From positions 356,903 to 420,902 of the forward strand of contig NZ_AOIQ01000014.1 in the NCBI RefSeq assembly GCF_000337515.1: DNA of 64,000 nucleotides, in the 5' to 3' direction. Numbering within the stretch: position 1 is the stretch's first letter; every line of letters starts with the position of its first letter. Positions 22,452 through 30,378 of the stretch are shown piece by piece. The notes beneath the pieces are model-generated. The model worked only from the letters and a program-made list of their open reading frames with translations. It had not been told where the DNA came from and did not search any database. Both the position numbers and the translations under genes were made by a program. Source of the DNA: Halovivax asiaticus JCM 14624. GTDB lineage: Archaea; Halobacteriota; Halobacteria; Halobacteriales; Natrialbaceae.

Positions 22452-22577
22452 CCGGCAAGCCGTTCTCTGTCGCACTCACGGCCTCGTTGTCTTCTCGCCG
22501 TTCACAGCTATCGCACGCAGCCGTACCCGCGACCCAAAGGCACATTTACATCCGCCGATTATCCATCGCTCATCAGA

Positions 22578-23807
<1,230 letters not shown>

Positions 23808-24049
23808 ACCGAACTTTTGCGCTGTCGTTCGAGAGAGCAAAGCTCTCTCGTGATGACGAAAGGCGCGAAGCGCCTTTCGAACCACGGGCCGGCTGCGCCG
23901 GCCCTCGGCAAAACTTCGATGAAAAACGCTCCTCCTTCCGTTACAGCCGCGCGTAGCGCGGCTTTCACATCAGTCGTCGGCCCGCTCGCTCGTCCACACC
24001 GTGGACTCGCTCACGGTTCTCGTGCTAGTGTAGCCCAGCCTTTCCCCGT
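23808..24049 (+). repeat. Mosaic hairpin-rich 3' element, copy 1 (after pan)
   Basis: It starts directly after the pan stop. Block A, ACCGAACTTTTGCGCTG (23808-23824), is followed by three perfect or near-perfect hairpins (about 23831-23850, 23859-23880, 23886-23905). Block B (23910-23987, 78 nt) matches the reverse complement of 27976-28053 at 76 of 78 positions and holds its own hairpin (AGCCGCGC/GCGCGGCT, about 23945-23963). Another hairpin follows (GTCCAC/GTGGAC), then block C (24025-24049), which matches copy 2 at 22 of 25 positions, and a last hairpin (GCGTGCCC/GGGCACGC). 24050-24150 shows nothing else and should hold the pdaD promoter. It could be a terminator or 3' UTR module or a miniature mobile element. 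Confidence 0.75.
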
Positions 24050-24150
24050 GCTCGCGTGCCCACCGGGCACGCTCGCGGCCGCCGCACCGCAATCGGTCTG
24101 GTGGATTGCGGATCGCAACGCCTTACGCCGTCGGGGCCTGAGGGCGGGTA

Positions 24151-24630
24151 ATGAGTACGATTCGGGTCGTCTGGGGGTCGGCGACGGGGCCGACGGAGAT
24201 GGCGGCCTACGACGCGGCGCTCGTGGATGCGGGTATCGAGAACTACAATCTCGTGGCCGTTTCGTCGGTGATTCCCGCAGGCGTGCCTGTCGTGGCGGTC
24301 GGGACGGCGCCGGATCTCGGACCGGCGGGCGAGCGCCTGACGGTCGTCGAAGGGCGGGCGCGGGCGGCCGGGCCGACGAGCGTGAGCGCCGGCCTCGGCT
24401 GGGTGGAGTCGATCGACGACGGGCCGGGGTTGTTCTACGAGGCGGCGGGTGAAGCGGACCCCGACGATGTCGAGCGTCGCGTTCGGGAGGGGATCGGCGC
24501 TGGTGCCGACCTCAGGGAGTGGGACCTCGGGGAAGCGAATGTCCACGTCGAGCAGGCCCGCGCCGAGTCGGGTGCGTACGCCGCGGCGGTCGTCGTGGCC
24601 GCCTACGGCGAGAGCGAACCGATCGTCTGA
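24151..24630 (+). CDS. pdaD: Pyruvoyl-dependent arginine decarboxylase
   Basis: A 159-residue proenzyme that self-cleaves to form the pyruvoyl cofactor and converts arginine to agmatine. In haloarchaea agmatine feeds agmatidine synthesis at the tRNA-Ile2 wobble base (established for archaea) and possibly polyamines. The cleavage site is 'NYNLVAVSSVIP', with Ser38-Ser39 as the likely scissile pair. 'GPTSVSAGLGWVE', and 'LFYEAAGEADPDDVERRV' with its active-site Glu, match the family. The length is normal. It converges on the MBL-like gene with a 21-bp gap, just past repeat element copy 1. Confidence 0.93.
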   Translation: MSTIRVVWGSATGPTEMAAYDAALVDAGIENYNLVAVSSVIPAGVPVVAVGTAPDLGPAGERLTVVEGRARAAGPTSVSAGLGWVESIDDGPGLFYEAAGEADPDDVERRVREGIGAGADLREWDLGEANVHVEQARAESGAYAAAVVVAAYGESEPIV

Positions 24631-24651
24631 GCGGTCCACCGTAGTGGACGG

Positions 24652-25356
24652 CTAGTCCTTCATCGCCGCGAGAAGCAACCTACTATTCGTTCCGAGCTGC
24701 TTCACAAGCGCACGAGGGAACCGTCGCCGCGAGTTGTGGAGAGCGTCGTCGAGTGCGTCCGTCGCGTCCTCCAGGACGCCGGTGCCGTGACCGAACAGGA
24801 TCCGATCCGGTTCGAGGTCCCCCAACGTCTCTCGGGGTGGAACGAGCCGATGGGAGAGTGCAATGCCGACCCGTTCGTCTGCGACAGTGTAGCCGGGTCC
24901 CGTGCCGGCGATGTCCGGGACGATGAGCGTCCCGTCCTCCGGTCGGTACGCGATCGCCTCTTGCCACATGCCGAGTGGTTCGATTCGGCTGACGGTGAAC
25001 CCCGAGCCGTCGATACGGGTATCGTATCGGGTGAGCGGTGCGTCGACGCGTTCTCCGATCCGTTCCATCCACTGCGGGACGAAAACGGGGACATCGTGAC
25101 GCGCGGCGACTGCGCCTGCATCGCGAGCGTGATAGCTGGAGAGAACGGCCACACCTGACACGGTCCCGTATTCGGCGATGAGGTCGTCGACCCCGTCTCC
25201 GTCGATCGGGTCGAATACCCAGACGCCGTCGTCCGCGACGATCGCGTGACTCGATCGCATCCCCGTCTCGTCGGGATGGGCTACCCAGCCGACGCCGCCT
25301 GACCATCGATCGATTACCTGCAATTCACCCGCCGAGGACCTGTCGTAGACGACCAT
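24652..25356 (-). CDS. Metallo-beta-lactamase-fold-like protein with degenerate metal site
   Basis: 234 residues. The alpha-beta pattern is that of the MBL fold: 'SSHAIVADDGVWVFDPIDGDGVDDLIAEYG', then 'VAVLSSYHARDAGAVAARHDVPVFVP', a middle region ending 'GTLIVPDIAGTGPGY', and 'PDRILFGHGTGV'. Active members have HxHxDH after the fourth strand. Here it reads SYHARDAG, with one His and one Asp misplaced, so zinc binding is probably weakened or lost. The role is unknown. The frame extends 131 codons upstream, but that part is an Arg/Ser-rich shadow; the Met at 25356 begins the fold. Confidence 0.75.
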   Translation of the reverse strand: MVVYDRSSAGELQVIDRWSGGVGWVAHPDETGMRSSHAIVADDGVWVFDPIDGDGVDDLIAEYGTVSGVAVLSSYHARDAGAVAARHDVPVFVPQWMERIGERVDAPLTRYDTRIDGSGFTVSRIEPLGMWQEAIAYRPEDGTLIVPDIAGTGPGYTVADERVGIALSHRLVPPRETLGDLEPDRILFGHGTGVLEDATDALDDALHNSRRRFPRALVKQLGTNSRLLLAAMKD

Positions 25357-25540
25357 CGGATACTTCAGACACGCGTACCGACTCAAAAAGCGATTTCGGC
25401 TCCACGCGCCGTTTCGCTCGAATAAAGCCCTTCTCGTGCGTATCGACGCGGCGGGAGTCGGACTGTTCCCTCGGTCGAGACGAACGCGGTGAGCCAAACG
25501 CTTTTGGCCAGCCGACTCGTTGAGTCGGTACCGACTTCTC

Positions 25541-25939
25541 ATGAACGCCAATACACCGTACGCCGGCCGCCCGGGAACCACACAGGCGGGGCACCGTTCG
25601 GCGGACGATCTCGACGAGGTGACGCCGATCCAGCGGCGTGCACTCCGCCGAGACGTCTCCCGCGTCGCCGCCCAGACCCGGGATCTGCTCCCCGACGAGT
25701 TCGTCGTCGACAGCGACATCACGCAGGGAGTCGGCGGCCCGCAGCTCACCGTCGCCGTCCAGCCCCCGATCGGTCACCCGGTCAGTGCGGGCTTCGCCCC
25801 TGACGTCTCGCTCGTCGAGGACGCCGACTCCGTCATCGACGACGACGAGTGCGCCGAGGTCGCCCGCGGCCTCGCCGCGAGCGCCGCCCTGCAGGTCAAA
25901 CAGGCCATGGGCACTGAGTTCACGCCGACTGCCCGCTAA
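25541..25939 (+). CDS. DUF5811-like haloarchaeal protein
   Basis: 132 residues starting 'MNANTPYAGRPGTTQAG'. The centre 'QRRALRRDVSRVAAQTRDLLPDEFVV', followed by 'VAVQPPIGHPVSAGFAPD' and the end 'VARGLAASAALQVKQAMG', is the pattern I know from the haloarchaea-specific DUF5811 family. It is cytosolic, acidic and of unknown function. An in-frame Met seven codons upstream is possible, but the family begins at MN-NTPYAG. It is transcribed divergently from the MBL-like gene with a 184-bp gap. Confidence 0.8.
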   Translation: MNANTPYAGRPGTTQAGHRSADDLDEVTPIQRRALRRDVSRVAAQTRDLLPDEFVVDSDITQGVGGPQLTVAVQPPIGHPVSAGFAPDVSLVEDADSVIDDDECAEVARGLAASAALQVKQAMGTEFTPTAR

Positions 25940-25975
25940 CGCGTCACCGCAGTACTTTCTCTCCGTCTGGCTCGC

Positions 25976-26182
25976 TTACTCCTCGACGAATCGCCAGGCG
26001 TAGGCGCCCCCGAGTACGACGGCGACGAGGACGATCACGAACAGCAGAAAGTACAGCAACGCCTCTCGATCGCCGGCCTGTACCTCGTTCGAGACGACCA
26101 TGAACCCCGCGACGAGGCTCACCACGACCACGAACCCGACGAGGCCACGCCGGCTGTCGAAACCCTCTAACACTTCTCTCAT
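25976..26182 (-). CDS. Small two-helix membrane protein (68 aa)
   Basis: Not recognised. After 'MREVLEGFDSRRG' come two helices, 'LVGFVVVVSLVAGFMVVSN' and 'LLYFLLFVIVLVAVVLGGAYAW', and a short 'RFVEE' tail. A start four codons upstream is possible. It lies 86 bp downstream of the lipoprotein hydrolase on the same strand. Composition and codon use match the core genome. Confidence 0.62.
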   Translation of the reverse strand: MREVLEGFDSRRGLVGFVVVVSLVAGFMVVSNEVQAGDREALLYFLLFVIVLVAVVLGGAYAWRFVEE

Positions 26183-26268
26183 ACCGCCGACCACAGACCC
26201 GGATCCTAAAACGATTCTGGCAGATTGGGTGGATCGGCCGGATATCCACTACACCAGTTCCGCCCAGT

Positions 26269-27651
26269 TTACTGGCTCTCACCGACGAACCCGGCCACGG
26301 TATCGACGACGCGTTCGTCGACGGGGTTCTCCGGTTCGACCCACTCGTTCGGCCTCGCCGGTTCGTCGCCGGACTGGAATCGGTGGTTCAGGTCGTCGAA
26401 CACTTCGATCCGCACGTCGGATTTGTCGCCGATGGCGTCCTCCCAGACGGGGAGGTCGTCTTCGACGGTCACCAGATAGTCGCGGCCGCCCTGGACGAGC
26501 AGAATCGGGACGTCCAGCCCGGCGGCGGTCGCGGTGTGGTCGTACGCCTGGAGCGTCCGCCAGAATGCGCGGCCGCGCCCGCCGGCGATCTCGAGTACTT
26601 CGTCGTCGCCGATGTCGAGCGTCCGGATGCGTTCGGTGAGGGCTTCGACATCGGCGAGCGCCGCCTCGTCCGCGTCCGACAGCTCGCCGTCGAGCGTCAG
26701 CACGTGCCGTTGCTGGCGGACGATCGCCTCGTGGACCGGGACGCCGGACGGGGCGAGCATGATCACGCCCGCCGCGTCGCTCCGCTTGGCGATCAGCGGG
26801 GCGAACTTCCCGCCGAGGCTGTGGCCGGCGACGTACACGGTGTCGATCCCGTCCGCCCCGCGGAGTCGTTCGACGGCCGCGACGGCGTCGTCGACGATGA
26901 TGTCGTCGACGGTGGCCGCCGTCCGGTCGACGTCGCAAGCGACCGTCCGTTTGTCGTAGCGGAGCGTGGTGATTCCCCGGGTGGCGAGCCCCCACGCGAG
27001 TTCGTTGAAGGTTCGATTAGCGCCGGCGGTCTCATCGCGGTCTTGGTCGCCGCTGCCGTGGACGAACACGATCCCCGTTCCGCCAGGGTCAGACGCTGGA
27101 CGAGTGAGCGTGGCGCCAATCGAACAGTCACCGGGGCCGTCGAGGGTCAGTTCGCGTTCGGTGAGTGCAGACTCGTCCGCGTACGCCGGCGGCGACCACT
27201 CTTCGCCCGGCTGCGCGACGAACTCGGCGATTTCACCCTTCGCGAAGGCGTACTCGAACCGGATCGTCGACTCGCTGAACTGCCCGCGAGCAACCACGAC
27301 AGCCAGTCCATCGTCCCGGTGGCCCCGAAACTCCACCGCGGCGAAGCCCTCGAGCTCGCCGGCCGGTCGAATCTGGTTCTCCCAGAACGACTCCATCTCC
27401 GCGGGCGGCAACTGGGACGCGAACGTGTCCGTCACTACCTCGTAGGCCGCATCCGTTTCGCCGGCATCGAGTGACTCGACGAATTCCCTGGCCCTGCGTT
27501 CCAATGTGCTCGGCTCGACTCCTCCGTCGTCGGGCGAGTTGCCATCGGATTCATCCGATTCATCGTTCCCCTCGGAGCCGGTGATACACCCGGCTAGTCC
27601 CACGACTGCTCCCGATACGATTCCCCGAACGATGGATCGACGCTCGATCAT
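26269..27651 (-). CDS. Lipoprotein alpha/beta hydrolase with N-terminal DUF3887-like domain
   Basis: 460 residues. 'ERRSIVRGIVSGAVVGLAGC' is a signal with a lipobox Cys at about residue 22, followed by an acidic linker, so the enzyme is anchored outside the cell. Residues about 50-150 form a small alpha-beta domain of DUF3887 type ('EFVESLDAGETDAAYEVVTDTFASQL'). The hydrolase follows: 'GIVFVHGSGDQDRDETAG', nucleophile Ser in 'VAGHSLGGKFAP', an acid in 'LVQGGRDYLV' and His in 'DDLNHRFQ'. DUF3887 plus dienelactone-hydrolase-like architecture is known in bacteria and archaea; the substrate is unknown. The AT-rich ATATAAAATA stretch just upstream may be part of its promoter but is unusually close to the start. 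Confidence 0.85.
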   Translation of the reverse strand: MIERRSIVRGIVSGAVVGLAGCITGSEGNDESDESDGNSPDDGGVEPSTLERRAREFVESLDAGETDAAYEVVTDTFASQLPPAEMESFWENQIRPAGELEGFAAVEFRGHRDDGLAVVVARGQFSESTIRFEYAFAKGEIAEFVAQPGEEWSPPAYADESALTERELTLDGPGDCSIGATLTRPASDPGGTGIVFVHGSGDQDRDETAGANRTFNELAWGLATRGITTLRYDKRTVACDVDRTAATVDDIIVDDAVAAVERLRGADGIDTVYVAGHSLGGKFAPLIAKRSDAAGVIMLAPSGVPVHEAIVRQQRHVLTLDGELSDADEAALADVEALTERIRTLDIGDDEVLEIAGGRGRAFWRTLQAYDHTATAAGLDVPILLVQGGRDYLVTVEDDLPVWEDAIGDKSDVRIEVFDDLNHRFQSGDEPARPNEWVEPENPVDERVVDTVAGFVGESQ

Positions 27652-27917
27652 GGTCGTATTTTATATCCAACACGAACGGCGATATAGCCGTTGGGATTGT
27701 CCCCGATACGCCGTCGCCGGCAGGTTTCGACTCGCTGTGAAAGATCCCCCGAGACGGCAACCCGAAACGGTGTCAGGACACAAGTGAGTCTACAACTACC
27801 CAAGACCGGGCACGCCAATCAACGTGTGTGACCGGATGATCCCCCTGCCGGACCCGAAATCGCACTCCCATGGCATCCCAAGTGGCCTGGCAGGCGGTTC
27901 GGTCAGAACCGCCTGCC
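27652..27917. other. Intergenic region between hydrolase promoter and repeat copy 2
   Basis: No gene seen. It contains the presumed hydrolase promoter and, at about 27890-27916, a strong hairpin (GGCAGGCGGTTC/GAACCGCCTGCC) that sits where copy 1 of the element also has its last hairpin. This hairpin probably belongs to element copy 2. Confidence 0.45.
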
Positions 27918-28124
27918 AACGGGGAAGGGCTGGTGTACACTAGTGTACTCGCCGCGAACGAGGCGTAGCCGAAGTGAGCGGGCCGACGACTGATGTGAAA
28001 GCCGCGCTACGCGCGGCTGTAACGGAAGGAGGAGTGCTTTTCATCGAAGTTTTTCCGAGCGTCGGCGAGACGGCGCCAGTGTGCTGGCGCACGTCTCGCC
28101 AGAGCGCAGCGAAAAAGTTCGGTG
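27918..28124 (-). repeat. Mosaic hairpin-rich 3' element, copy 2 (after infB)
   Basis: Read on the minus strand, it starts one base after the infB stop with ACCGAACTTTTTCGCTG (block A). A long hairpin follows (AGACGTGCGCCAG/CTGGCGCCGTCT type, imperfect), unrelated in sequence to the copy 1 hairpins. Then come block B (28053-27976, 76 of 78 identical to copy 1), a different spacer and block C (27942-27918). Copies 1 and 2 are inverted relative to each other on the chromosome but have the same orientation relative to the gene they follow. An open frame on the plus strand through this region is not credible. Confidence 0.75.
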
Positions 28125-29930
28125 TTACTTCCCCCAGAACGGGTCCCGTTTCCGGTGGCGGTCTAAGTACATGTTGAGGGCTTCGCGTTCGTCGCCGGGG
28201 ATCTCTTCGGCGAGTTCCTGTTCGAGAATCTTGGCGTGTTTTTCGGGGAGTTCGATCCAGAGCTCTTCGTCTTCGTGGATCTGGCGGCCGACGGTGGGGC
28301 CGTCGATGGCGACGGAGACGCGATTGCCGGCGCGGGCCTCGTCGACGTCCTCCCCCTGTTCCTGGATGCCCTTGACCACGCCGACGCGTTCGGTCTGGTT
28401 GCCGTCGAAGCGGACGACGCGTTCGTTGTTCTGGAGGGTGCCGGCGTTCACTTCGACGCCGACGACGGCCGGGTCGTTCTGCCGGAAGACGTGGTCGGGG
28501 AGGATGCGGAAGCGGGCGGGGCGGGTGATGTTCTCGAGGACGGTGTCCTGCTGGGCGCGTTCGAGTTCCTCGACGAAGTCCTCGTAGCCCTCGACGAGCT
28601 GGTAGATGACGTCGTCGGTGAAGAGGCGCACGTCGTCGATCTCGGCTCGCTCGGCGGCGTCGTCTAACACGTCGACGTTGAATCCGAGGATGACCTGCTG
28701 TTTGGTGTCCTCGGCGGTGGAGGCGACGGAGATGTCGCGCGGGGCGACGTCGCCGACCTCGGCGCGGACGATGGGGATTTCGGCCTCGCCGCAGGCGTCG
28801 GCCATGGCTTCCAGACTGCCGAGGGTGTCGGCCTTGACGACGACGCCCTGTTCTTCGGTTTCGACGGCGATCTCGGCGAGTTCGGCCTCGACCTCCTCGA
28901 TGACGTCGTCTCTGTCGCGGTCACGGACGACGCGAACGGGGGCGCCGGCCATGGCGTCGGCGAGGTCGGGAGCGGCGACCTTGATCCCGGCGGCGGCGTC
29001 GACCTGCTCGACGCGCTCGAAACGACTCTCCGTGCGGATTTCGGCCAGCGGTCGGGGCTGGAGGAGGGCGCGGACGTCGGTGACGATGGGTTCGGTCGTG
29101 CCGCCGACGACGATCGTGTCGTCGGTGCGGATGGTCCCGTCGTAGAGGACGATGTCGACCGTCGCGCCGAAGCCTTTCTCCTCTTTGACTTCGAGGACGG
29201 TGCCGACGCCGGGGCCGGCGACGTCGATCTCCATCTCCTCGCGCATGTAGCGCTGGGAGAGGCCCATCATCACGGTCAGGAGGTCGGGGACGCCCTCGCC
29301 GGTCATGGCGGAGACGGGGACGACGCCGATGTTGCGCTGGAAGTGCTGGACGCGCCAGTAGAGATCGGCGGAGAAGCCTTCGTCGGAGAGTTCGCCGATG
29401 ATCTCGTAGAGGCGTTCGTCGAGGTCGCCGCGGACGCGATCCGACTGGTTCTCGTAGGTGGGTTTGATCGGGGCGTCGTCGGTCGGGTTCCAGCCGGGGA
29501 CGGTGTCGATCTTGTTCGCCGCGACGATGAACGGCGTCTGGGAGCGCTGGAGGATGTCGAGCGCCTCGATCGTCTGGGGCTGGAAGCCGTCGTTGACGTC
29601 GACGACGAGGATCGCGATGTCGGCGAGGTTGCCCCCGCGCGAGCGCAGCGTGGTGAACGAGTGATGACCGGGCGTGTCGATAAAGAGGAGGCCGGGGAGA
29701 TCGAAGTCGTCGGGATCGACGAGGTCGCCCGCGATGGCGGAGATGACGTCTAGCGGGACGGCCGTCGCCCCGATGTGCTGGGTGATGGCGCCCGCCTCAC
29801 CCTCGATGACGGCCGAGCCACGGATCTGATCGAGCAGGCTCGTCTTGCCGTGATCGACGTGGCCGAGCACGGCGACGATCGGTGTCCGGAGCGAGGCGTT
29901 TTCGGGGGAATCAGTGTCTGAGTCCGACAT
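28125..29930 (-). CDS. infB: Translation initiation factor IF-2 (aIF5B)
   Basis: A 601-residue GTPase that promotes subunit joining and initiator-tRNA placement. G1 'GHVDHGKT' (residues 23-30), switch II 'DTPGHHSF' and 'NKID' are intact; 'IGATAVPLDVI' follows the switch I region. Domains II-IV follow ('GTVLEVKEEKGFGATVDIVLYDG', 'GVVVKADTLGSLEAM', 'GVVKGIQEQGEDVDEARAGNRVSVAI'). The length is typical of archaeal aIF5B, which lacks the long bacterial N-terminus. The longest frame extends upstream, but 'MSDSDTDSPENASLRTPIVAVLGH' is the proper start. It is divergent from the PRC-barrel gene. Confidence 0.97.
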   Translation of the reverse strand: MSDSDTDSPENASLRTPIVAVLGHVDHGKTSLLDQIRGSAVIEGEAGAITQHIGATAVPLDVISAIAGDLVDPDDFDLPGLLFIDTPGHHSFTTLRSRGGNLADIAILVVDVNDGFQPQTIEALDILQRSQTPFIVAANKIDTVPGWNPTDDAPIKPTYENQSDRVRGDLDERLYEIIGELSDEGFSADLYWRVQHFQRNIGVVPVSAMTGEGVPDLLTVMMGLSQRYMREEMEIDVAGPGVGTVLEVKEEKGFGATVDIVLYDGTIRTDDTIVVGGTTEPIVTDVRALLQPRPLAEIRTESRFERVEQVDAAAGIKVAAPDLADAMAGAPVRVVRDRDRDDVIEEVEAELAEIAVETEEQGVVVKADTLGSLEAMADACGEAEIPIVRAEVGDVAPRDISVASTAEDTKQQVILGFNVDVLDDAAERAEIDDVRLFTDDVIYQLVEGYEDFVEELERAQQDTVLENITRPARFRILPDHVFRQNDPAVVGVEVNAGTLQNNERVVRFDGNQTERVGVVKGIQEQGEDVDEARAGNRVSVAIDGPTVGRQIHEDEELWIELPEKHAKILEQELAEEIPGDEREALNMYLDRHRKRDPFWGK

Positions 29931-30132
29931 GCAAACCACCAGAGAAGGCTCTTGGTCGAGAGTCCCCGGGCCGACAGTTAAACCCATCGTCACGGAGTGT
30001 GGGTCGGCTCGGACGGAGGGCCCGTCGAGGCGAACCGCTCCCGGTCGAGTCGGCGTGGCTCGACACCGGGCGTCAGACACCTGTCTTCCACGAACCCGAA
30101 TGTTAATAGCCGACCGGCGTGACGTTGTCGGC

Positions 30133-30378
30133 ATGAGCGACATACTCGCCGAAAACCTGTCGGGCAAGTCCGTCATGGGGGCGGACGGGACCGAGCTCGG
30201 ACTCCTCTACAACATCACGATGGACCTCTCGTCGGGTCAGCTACACGATCTGGTCGTCGAACCTGACGAGGAACTGCCGGGTCGCGCCGTCGACTTCGAC
30301 CGCAACGACGCCGGTCGCTTCCAGATACCCGTCTCTCGGGTACAGGCCGTCAAAGACTACATCGTCGTCGAACGCTAA
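30133..30378 (+). CDS. PRC-barrel domain protein
   Basis: 81 residues forming a single PRC-barrel: 'LSGKSVMGADGTELGLLYNITMDLSSGQLHDLVVEPDEE' and 'FQIPVSRVQAVKDYIVVER'. PRC-barrels bind proteins or RNA (RimM-like) and occur beside infB and nob1 in haloarchaea, pointing to a ribosome-linked role (inference). GTTAATA about 29 nt before the ATG gives a leaderless promoter and decides the start against an upstream extension. nob1 follows after 21 bp. Confidence 0.88.
   Translation: MSDILAENLSGKSVMGADGTELGLLYNITMDLSSGQLHDLVVEPDEELPGRAVDFDRNDAGRFQIPVSRVQAVKDYIVVER

Follow-up and report, generated by a model that had tools for sequence, protein, structure and literature searches.

An uncatalogued family of palindromic DNA elements at haloarchaeal gene ends, with two copies behind pan and infB of Halovivax asiaticus

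In a 64,000-nucleotide (nt) stretch of the genome of the haloarchaeon Halovivax asiaticus JCM 14624 (contig NZ_AOIQ01000014.1, positions 356,903 to 420,902; hereafter the window, with positions counted from its first letter), two genes on opposite strands are followed by closely similar sequence. One is the open reading frame (ORF) at 22578-23807 (+) and the other the ORF at 28125-30176 (-); a first-pass annotation made from the letters alone had named them pan and infB, and NCBIfam bears these names out, assigning the former to the proteasome-activating nucleotidase Pan2 and the latter to translation initiation factor IF-2. The common sequence (ACCGAACTTTT..) begins at 23808, directly 3' of the pan stop codon; on the minus strand its start is 28123, one base past the infB stop, and each copy reads in the direction of its own gene. 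Re-reading of the sequence upheld the coordinates and the shared orientation given by that annotation, and pairwise alignment, which extends across about 160 bp, upheld its 78-nt block with 76 matches (23910-23987 versus 28053-27976, with the mismatches it had given) and its 25-nt block with 22 (24025-24049 versus 27942-27918). Its view that the likeness is not due to chance also holds: the pan copy, searched against the entire genome, matched the infB copy at E = 3e-37 and hit 20 places in all, 18 of them besides these two copies (a few being a partial copy or only the nested insert N1, see below). Among the 52 gene ends of the window, a tract of at least four T (T4+) starts within 8 nt past the stop only at pan and infB, and this T run is therefore a feature special to the two genes within the window; one further gene end has such a run at 9 nt.

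The two sequences belong to a family of folded haloarchaeal DNA elements that had not been catalogued before. The form found here, type I, consists, from the gene end outward, of an A arm (CGAACTTTTNC), a hairpin H1 with variable arms, an A' arm (GNAAAACTTCG or matching variants), GAT(G/C)AAAAGC, a pyrimidine tract (CTCCTCCTTCC), a hairpin H2 with variable arms, TCAGTCGTCGGCCCGCTCRCTC, a hairpin H3, and CGCTCGCGGT; the C block has the sequence GTCGTCGGCCCGCTC, and some copies carry an extra tail (CCAGCCTTTCCCCGT) with a further hairpin. Nested modules interrupt some copies, N1 that of pan and N2 those of aIF-1A and the polymerase II large subunit. A simpler type II, with the order stop-CGAACTTTTT-hairpin-AAAAACTTCGATGAAAAAGGCC-hairpin, was found through seven low-scoring matches in a close relative of this genome (G003).

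Searching the genome of the window (G000) with the pan copy and with two patterns, together with reading of the loci, gave 20 type I copies, and a local duplication that produced just two copies is ruled out because the genome holds about 20. The covariance-model search proposed in the first-pass annotation found the family widely. The type I model (R1) has matches in 40 of 61 genomes, this one included, and its carriers are the Natrialbaceae, as judged by the names of the matching public contigs; the type II model (R2) has matches in 53 of the 61, and in 46 of the 51 haloarchaeal genera tested. Copy number differs between genomes. These genome-wide counts rest on model and pattern searches; the copies retrieved for analysis are the best-scoring ones, and calls of absence depend on the model thresholds. 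The family corresponds to no known Rfam RNA, as the covariance models of Rfam 15 gave only chance-level matches over this region of the window, and in the loci of other copies only the signal recognition particle (SRP) RNA and tRNAs. An origin from viruses or phages was likewise rejected, with no copies in viral contigs (searched with the exact core pattern) or in phage records; plasmid matches, among those listed, were mostly to N1. No description of such an element family in haloarchaea was found in the literature searched, whose coverage left out most subscription papers.

Base pairing was assessed in 110 type I copies from other genomes, with a model built on 13 copies of the window's own genome. 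Because the alignment was fitted to this model the counts lean towards it: standard pairs fill 95.7% of pair cells, against 82.9% in shuffled controls and at most 46% with partners slid, and cells changed on both sides number 402, against 132 in the shuffles. The position after the T-tract occurs as G-C, A-U, U-A and C-G, and type II is 95.4% paired, against at most 54% with partners slid. Compensatory changes thus exceed shuffled and slid controls, as expected of a structured RNA family. The element lacks, however, the G-U tolerance typical of known structural RNAs: of the standard pairs in type I about 0.8% are G-U (22 of about 2,900, leaving out one invariant U-G pair), against 10-12% in SRP RNAs from three genomes in the same family. 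Such scarcity speaks against a single RNA strand as the sole target of selection; it suggests that both strands are constrained, or that template switching keeps the arms identical. The first-pass suggestion of a structured family at 3' ends is supported by covariation and by non-random position and orientation.

The T-tracts have a regular layout. Among 151 type I copies, 146 carry a sense T4+ run within their initial 18 nt and 136 carry exactly two antisense T4+ runs; the T-tract and neighbouring C past the gene that mark haloarchaeal T-stretch terminators are present, and many type II copies contain T5C. On folding, the antisense strand is more stable than the sense strand in all 151.

Tabulation of distance to the stop and of orientation, also proposed at first pass, showed both to be strongly non-random. 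The start of the element lies -4 to +3 nt from the stop of a coding ORF on the same strand in 118 of 155 type I copies, and -4 to +4 nt from a same-strand stop in 30 of 60 type II copies. Genes for structural RNAs are also followed by copies, which begin at or a few nt past the RNA 3' end behind the SRP RNA (loci L034, L083 and L127) and behind tRNA-Met and tRNA-Pro (L335 and L318). A small set of carriers recurs across genera, including uL16 (10 copies), TbsP (10), geranylgeranyl reductase (9), EngB (8), thermosome (7), GyrB (6), acyl-CoA dehydrogenase (6), Pan2 (5), TFS (5) and the polymerase II large subunit (5); in other haloarchaeal families thermosome, the polymerase II large subunit, a PhoU-like gene, SRP RNA and tRNAs are again carriers. 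At tRNA-Leu(tag) (L004, near 1377-1494) and tRNA-Gly(tcc) (L024, L110), a second copy of the tRNA 3' end lies about 100-130 nt downstream as part of an inverted repeat, and it is this repeat, not the tRNA proper, that the element follows.

At 19 of the 20 sites of this genome the element is present in G003 with altered arms and hairpins, and the uL16 copy differs between the two genomes by several compensatory changes at once, on both sides of the arms. Over longer distances presence varies: among pan orthologues of 30 Natrialbaceae genomes the element occurs in 10, without remnants in the rest, and the copy behind SRP RNA is confined to few genomes, mainly G000, G004 and G005. Mean identity between copies is 0.686 within a genome, 0.684 between different genes of different genera and 0.714 between copies at the same gene in different genera; similarity does not track the genome, and a recent burst of transposition is not supported. 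Copies do recombine, as G003 has the pan-infB segment in inverted orientation: the outer flanks (22464-23824 and 27961-29630) are collinear by blastn, the stretches 23998-24626 and 25491-26231 are reversed, and the breakpoints fall inside both elements. The inversion is best read as the product of recombination between the two copies, a stronger form of the gene conversion that the first-pass annotation had considered. In G003 the flanks of one G000 thermosome copy are found at two separate direct copies, about 5 kb from each other; recombination between direct copies would produce this arrangement, and either state could be the older. Two parts of the window (24627-25490 and 26232-27884) have no match in the corresponding G003 segment; the latter contains an ORF (26269-27651, -) for a predicted hydrolase-like protein, judged by eye.

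Table 1. Parts of the pan and infB copies and related features, in window positions
Feature	Position	Strand	Basis
pan copy (type I), A arm to C' arm	23808..24018	+	Covariance model match L001:1508-1718; directly after stop 23805-23807
A arm CGAACTTTTGC of pan copy, with sense T-tract 23815-23818	23810..23820	+	Pairs with 23908-23918; covarying across 110 copies
N1, nested two-hairpin insert in H1 region	23825..23887	+	Missing from most copies; alone at L010; on haloarchaeal plasmids
H1 hairpin GGGCCGGC-TGC-GCCGGCCC	23886..23904	+	Sequence; arms vary between copies
A' arm GCAAAACTTCG and second A-tract, giving two minus-strand T-tracts	23908..23926	+	Sequence; two antisense T4+ runs in 136/151 copies
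B pyrimidine tract CTCCTCCTTCC	23929..23939	+	Conserved columns of alignment A1
H2 hairpin AGCCGCGC-GTA-GCGCGGCT	23945..23963	+	Sequence; arms variable, covarying
C block TCAGTCGTCGGCCCGCTCGCTC, H3 (23992-24006), C' arm	23970..24018	+	Conserved columns of A1; helix 6 of A2 95.4% paired
D optional tail CTAGTGTAGCCCAGCCTTTCCCCGT and hairpin	24025..24080	+	Common to a subset of copies
infB copy (type I)	27950..28123	-	Covariance model match L002:1533-1706; one base past stop 28127-28125
A arm CGAACTTTTTC of infB copy, with T-tract 28112-28116	28111..28121	-	Sequence
A' arm GGAAAAACTTCG of infB copy	28045..28056	-	Sequence; complement of the A arm save one mismatch
H2 hairpin of infB copy	28000..28018	-	Sequence
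D tail of infB copy, hairpin GGCAGGCGGTTC..GAACCGCCTGCC	27888..27949	-	Sequence; behind pan instead in G003
Segment between copies inverted in G003 (matching stretches 23998-24626, 25491-26231)	23998..26231		blastn against G003:C1:78960-83830

N1 and N2 each contain two hairpins. N1 (TCGTTCG-hairpin-CGTGATGACGA-hairpin-TCGAACCACGG) lies within the pan copy and is free-standing at L010 elsewhere in the genome, and is found on many haloarchaeal plasmids with identity up to 97%. N2 (AAAAGAGC-hairpin-GGACCTCGCGG-hairpin-CTTAG) interrupts L008, L036, L416, L417, L419, L420 and L369 at the A' arm, always at the same internal position. There is also a short subfamily of about 125 nt that lacks H2, present in several genera (L155, L157, L159, L146, L096 and L193) and mostly not adjoining a recognised stop codon.

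We hypothesize, as somewhat the most probable account, that the element is a bidirectional terminator or a boundary element between transcription units, inherited at fixed gene ends, gained and lost over longer times, and recombining with its sister copies. From the sequence we infer that the T-tracts would terminate RNA polymerase in either direction. The sense tract (T4 in type I of the Natrialbaceae, T5 in type II), lying about 8 nt past the stop codon or the mature RNA end, would act as a hairpin-independent archaeal terminator; the two mirrored tracts on the opposite strand, there preceded by the GC-rich H2 and H3, would halt transcription arriving from the other side; and the arms would be kept complementary so that the signal acts in both directions. 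Near-absent G-U pairing would be expected, because both strands would matter, and sister copies may swap parts by homologous recombination. We favour this reading on the strength of the T-tract layout, of its speciality to pan and infB within the window, and of a precedent in Haloferax volcanii, where termination in vivo at a T5C sequence reached 95% of transcripts (PMC7237163); position, orientation, covariation, lack of wobble, T-tract layout, recurrence at the same genes and recombination are all read directly from the genomes, and the function assigned to them is a step beyond.

Several observations weigh against it. Of the 150 copies that could be classified, only 71 have a convergent gene downstream, which leaves half with no obvious need for an antisense stop; a terminator serving convergent genes only was rejected outright, as downstream genes are split about evenly between co-directional and convergent. 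Five copies lie between divergent genes, upstream of what reads from its sequence as rpS6e (ribosomal protein S6e), and another two precede a glutaredoxin-like gene, with no gene end on the A side in either case; these exceptional positions are themselves conserved. The T4 tract is shorter than the T5C tested in Haloferax, this reading gives no role to the conserved blocks B and C, and a simple terminator scan found no sense-strand GC hairpin followed by T at the pan or infB element. Many orthologues do without the element (20 of the 30 for pan), so it is not essential, and an essential terminator was accordingly rejected. Eleven more exceptions are conserved as well (L447, L448, L441, L450, L453, L191, L333, L336, L323, L473 and L478): mostly reversed and lying behind a convergent gene, they carry next to their A side a second copy of the adjoining region. 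The direct repeats are 31-127 nt long and mostly equal the 3' end of the convergent gene; L473 and L478 show a tandem duplication of the entire unit. A two-way terminator could be of use at most of the exceptional positions, the divergent rpS6e sites fitting least well.

The strong compensatory changes in both types would also suit a structured RNA of the 3' untranslated region (UTR), transcribed as part of the mRNA, with hairpins beside the stop that protect the 3' end or bind a protein and with termination further downstream. Conservation of B and C beyond the first T-tract fits such an RNA, and the Haloferax median 3' UTR of 97 nt (PMC7237163) would take in much of the element; the G-U share far below that of SRP RNA, the more stable antisense fold in every copy, and the occurrence behind SRP RNA and tRNA and in divergent intergenic regions nevertheless make this account unlikely. 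A DNA-level element, such as a recombination hot spot or a site for a nucleoid protein or gyrase, whose arms are kept perfect by template switching and not by selection on a transcript, would explain the near-perfect arms without wobble, the simultaneous change of both arm sides at uL16, the inverted pan-infB segment and the split thermosome flanks. It leaves unexplained why a T-tract is kept about 8 nt behind stops and why most gene ends have a single orientation, and we regard it as very improbable.

A rather unlikely place must be given to a palindromic mobile element preferring gene 3' ends, of the kind of repetitive extragenic palindromes (REPs), bacterial interspersed mosaic elements (BIMEs) or miniature inverted-repeat transposable elements, for which any host function would be incidental. 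Variable presence at orthologous sites without remnants, variable copy number, nested modules and mosaic copies, and the eleven copies with flanking duplications all speak for mobility. Yet copies are no more alike within a genome than between genera, nearly all sites are common to G003, the same genes recur across families, and phages and viruses yielded no copies in the searches above. Target-site duplications did not exceed control in the stop-abutting class (class 1), long flanking duplications being confined to 11 of 231 copies. Nor is a link to REP transposases supported: the Y1 transposase (PF01797) has no match in G000 with its 20 copies, or in G041 and G052, which have many, and shows no visible relation to copy number. 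Of the miniature element targeting 3' ends that the first-pass annotation had proposed, gain or loss at orthologous sites stands, and self-movement is not supported. A bolder variant of the boundary reading, which we consider rather doubtful, is an order-wide haloarchaeal boundary system, in which a recombining element would be acquired exactly at gene 3' ends by a targeting process, a dedicated factor would recognise its double-stranded or both-strand structure, and a fixed set of core genes would gain a two-way insulator.

How gene ends are defined in archaea is still poorly understood, the main known players being bare T-stretches and the nuclease aCPSF1/FttA. With its strict spacing from the stop, its single orientation at most ends, its carriers conserved across the order and its constraint on both strands, the family offers ready natural test sites; such sites also reshape genomes, as the pan-infB inversion shows, and the covariance models ease annotation of the family. 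Among known systems, bacterial REPs and BIMEs are likewise palindromic, intergenic, repeated, mosaic and situated behind genes. Bacterial REPs, however, are associated with Y1 transposases and multiply inside a genome, whereas the haloarchaeal element adjoins stop codons at the same orthologous genes and has no transposase link. Its antisense strand resembles bacterial intrinsic terminators in having GC-rich hairpins before T-tracts; its sense T-tract, unlike theirs, precedes the hairpin directly after the stop, and the standard scan finds no site. Paired DNA-uptake sequences in the terminators of naturally competent bacteria (PMC1852404) are also dispersed repeats at the ends of transcription, a parallel that is one of analogy only. 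Also close are the T5C terminators of Haloferax volcanii (Berkemer et al. 2020, PMC7237163), which likewise place a T-tract and then a C just past a haloarchaeal gene, many type II copies having TTTTTC exactly; those are bare T-stretches, whereas here the tract is an arm of a conserved hairpin, with mirrored T-tracts, additional blocks and a fixed distance from the stop.

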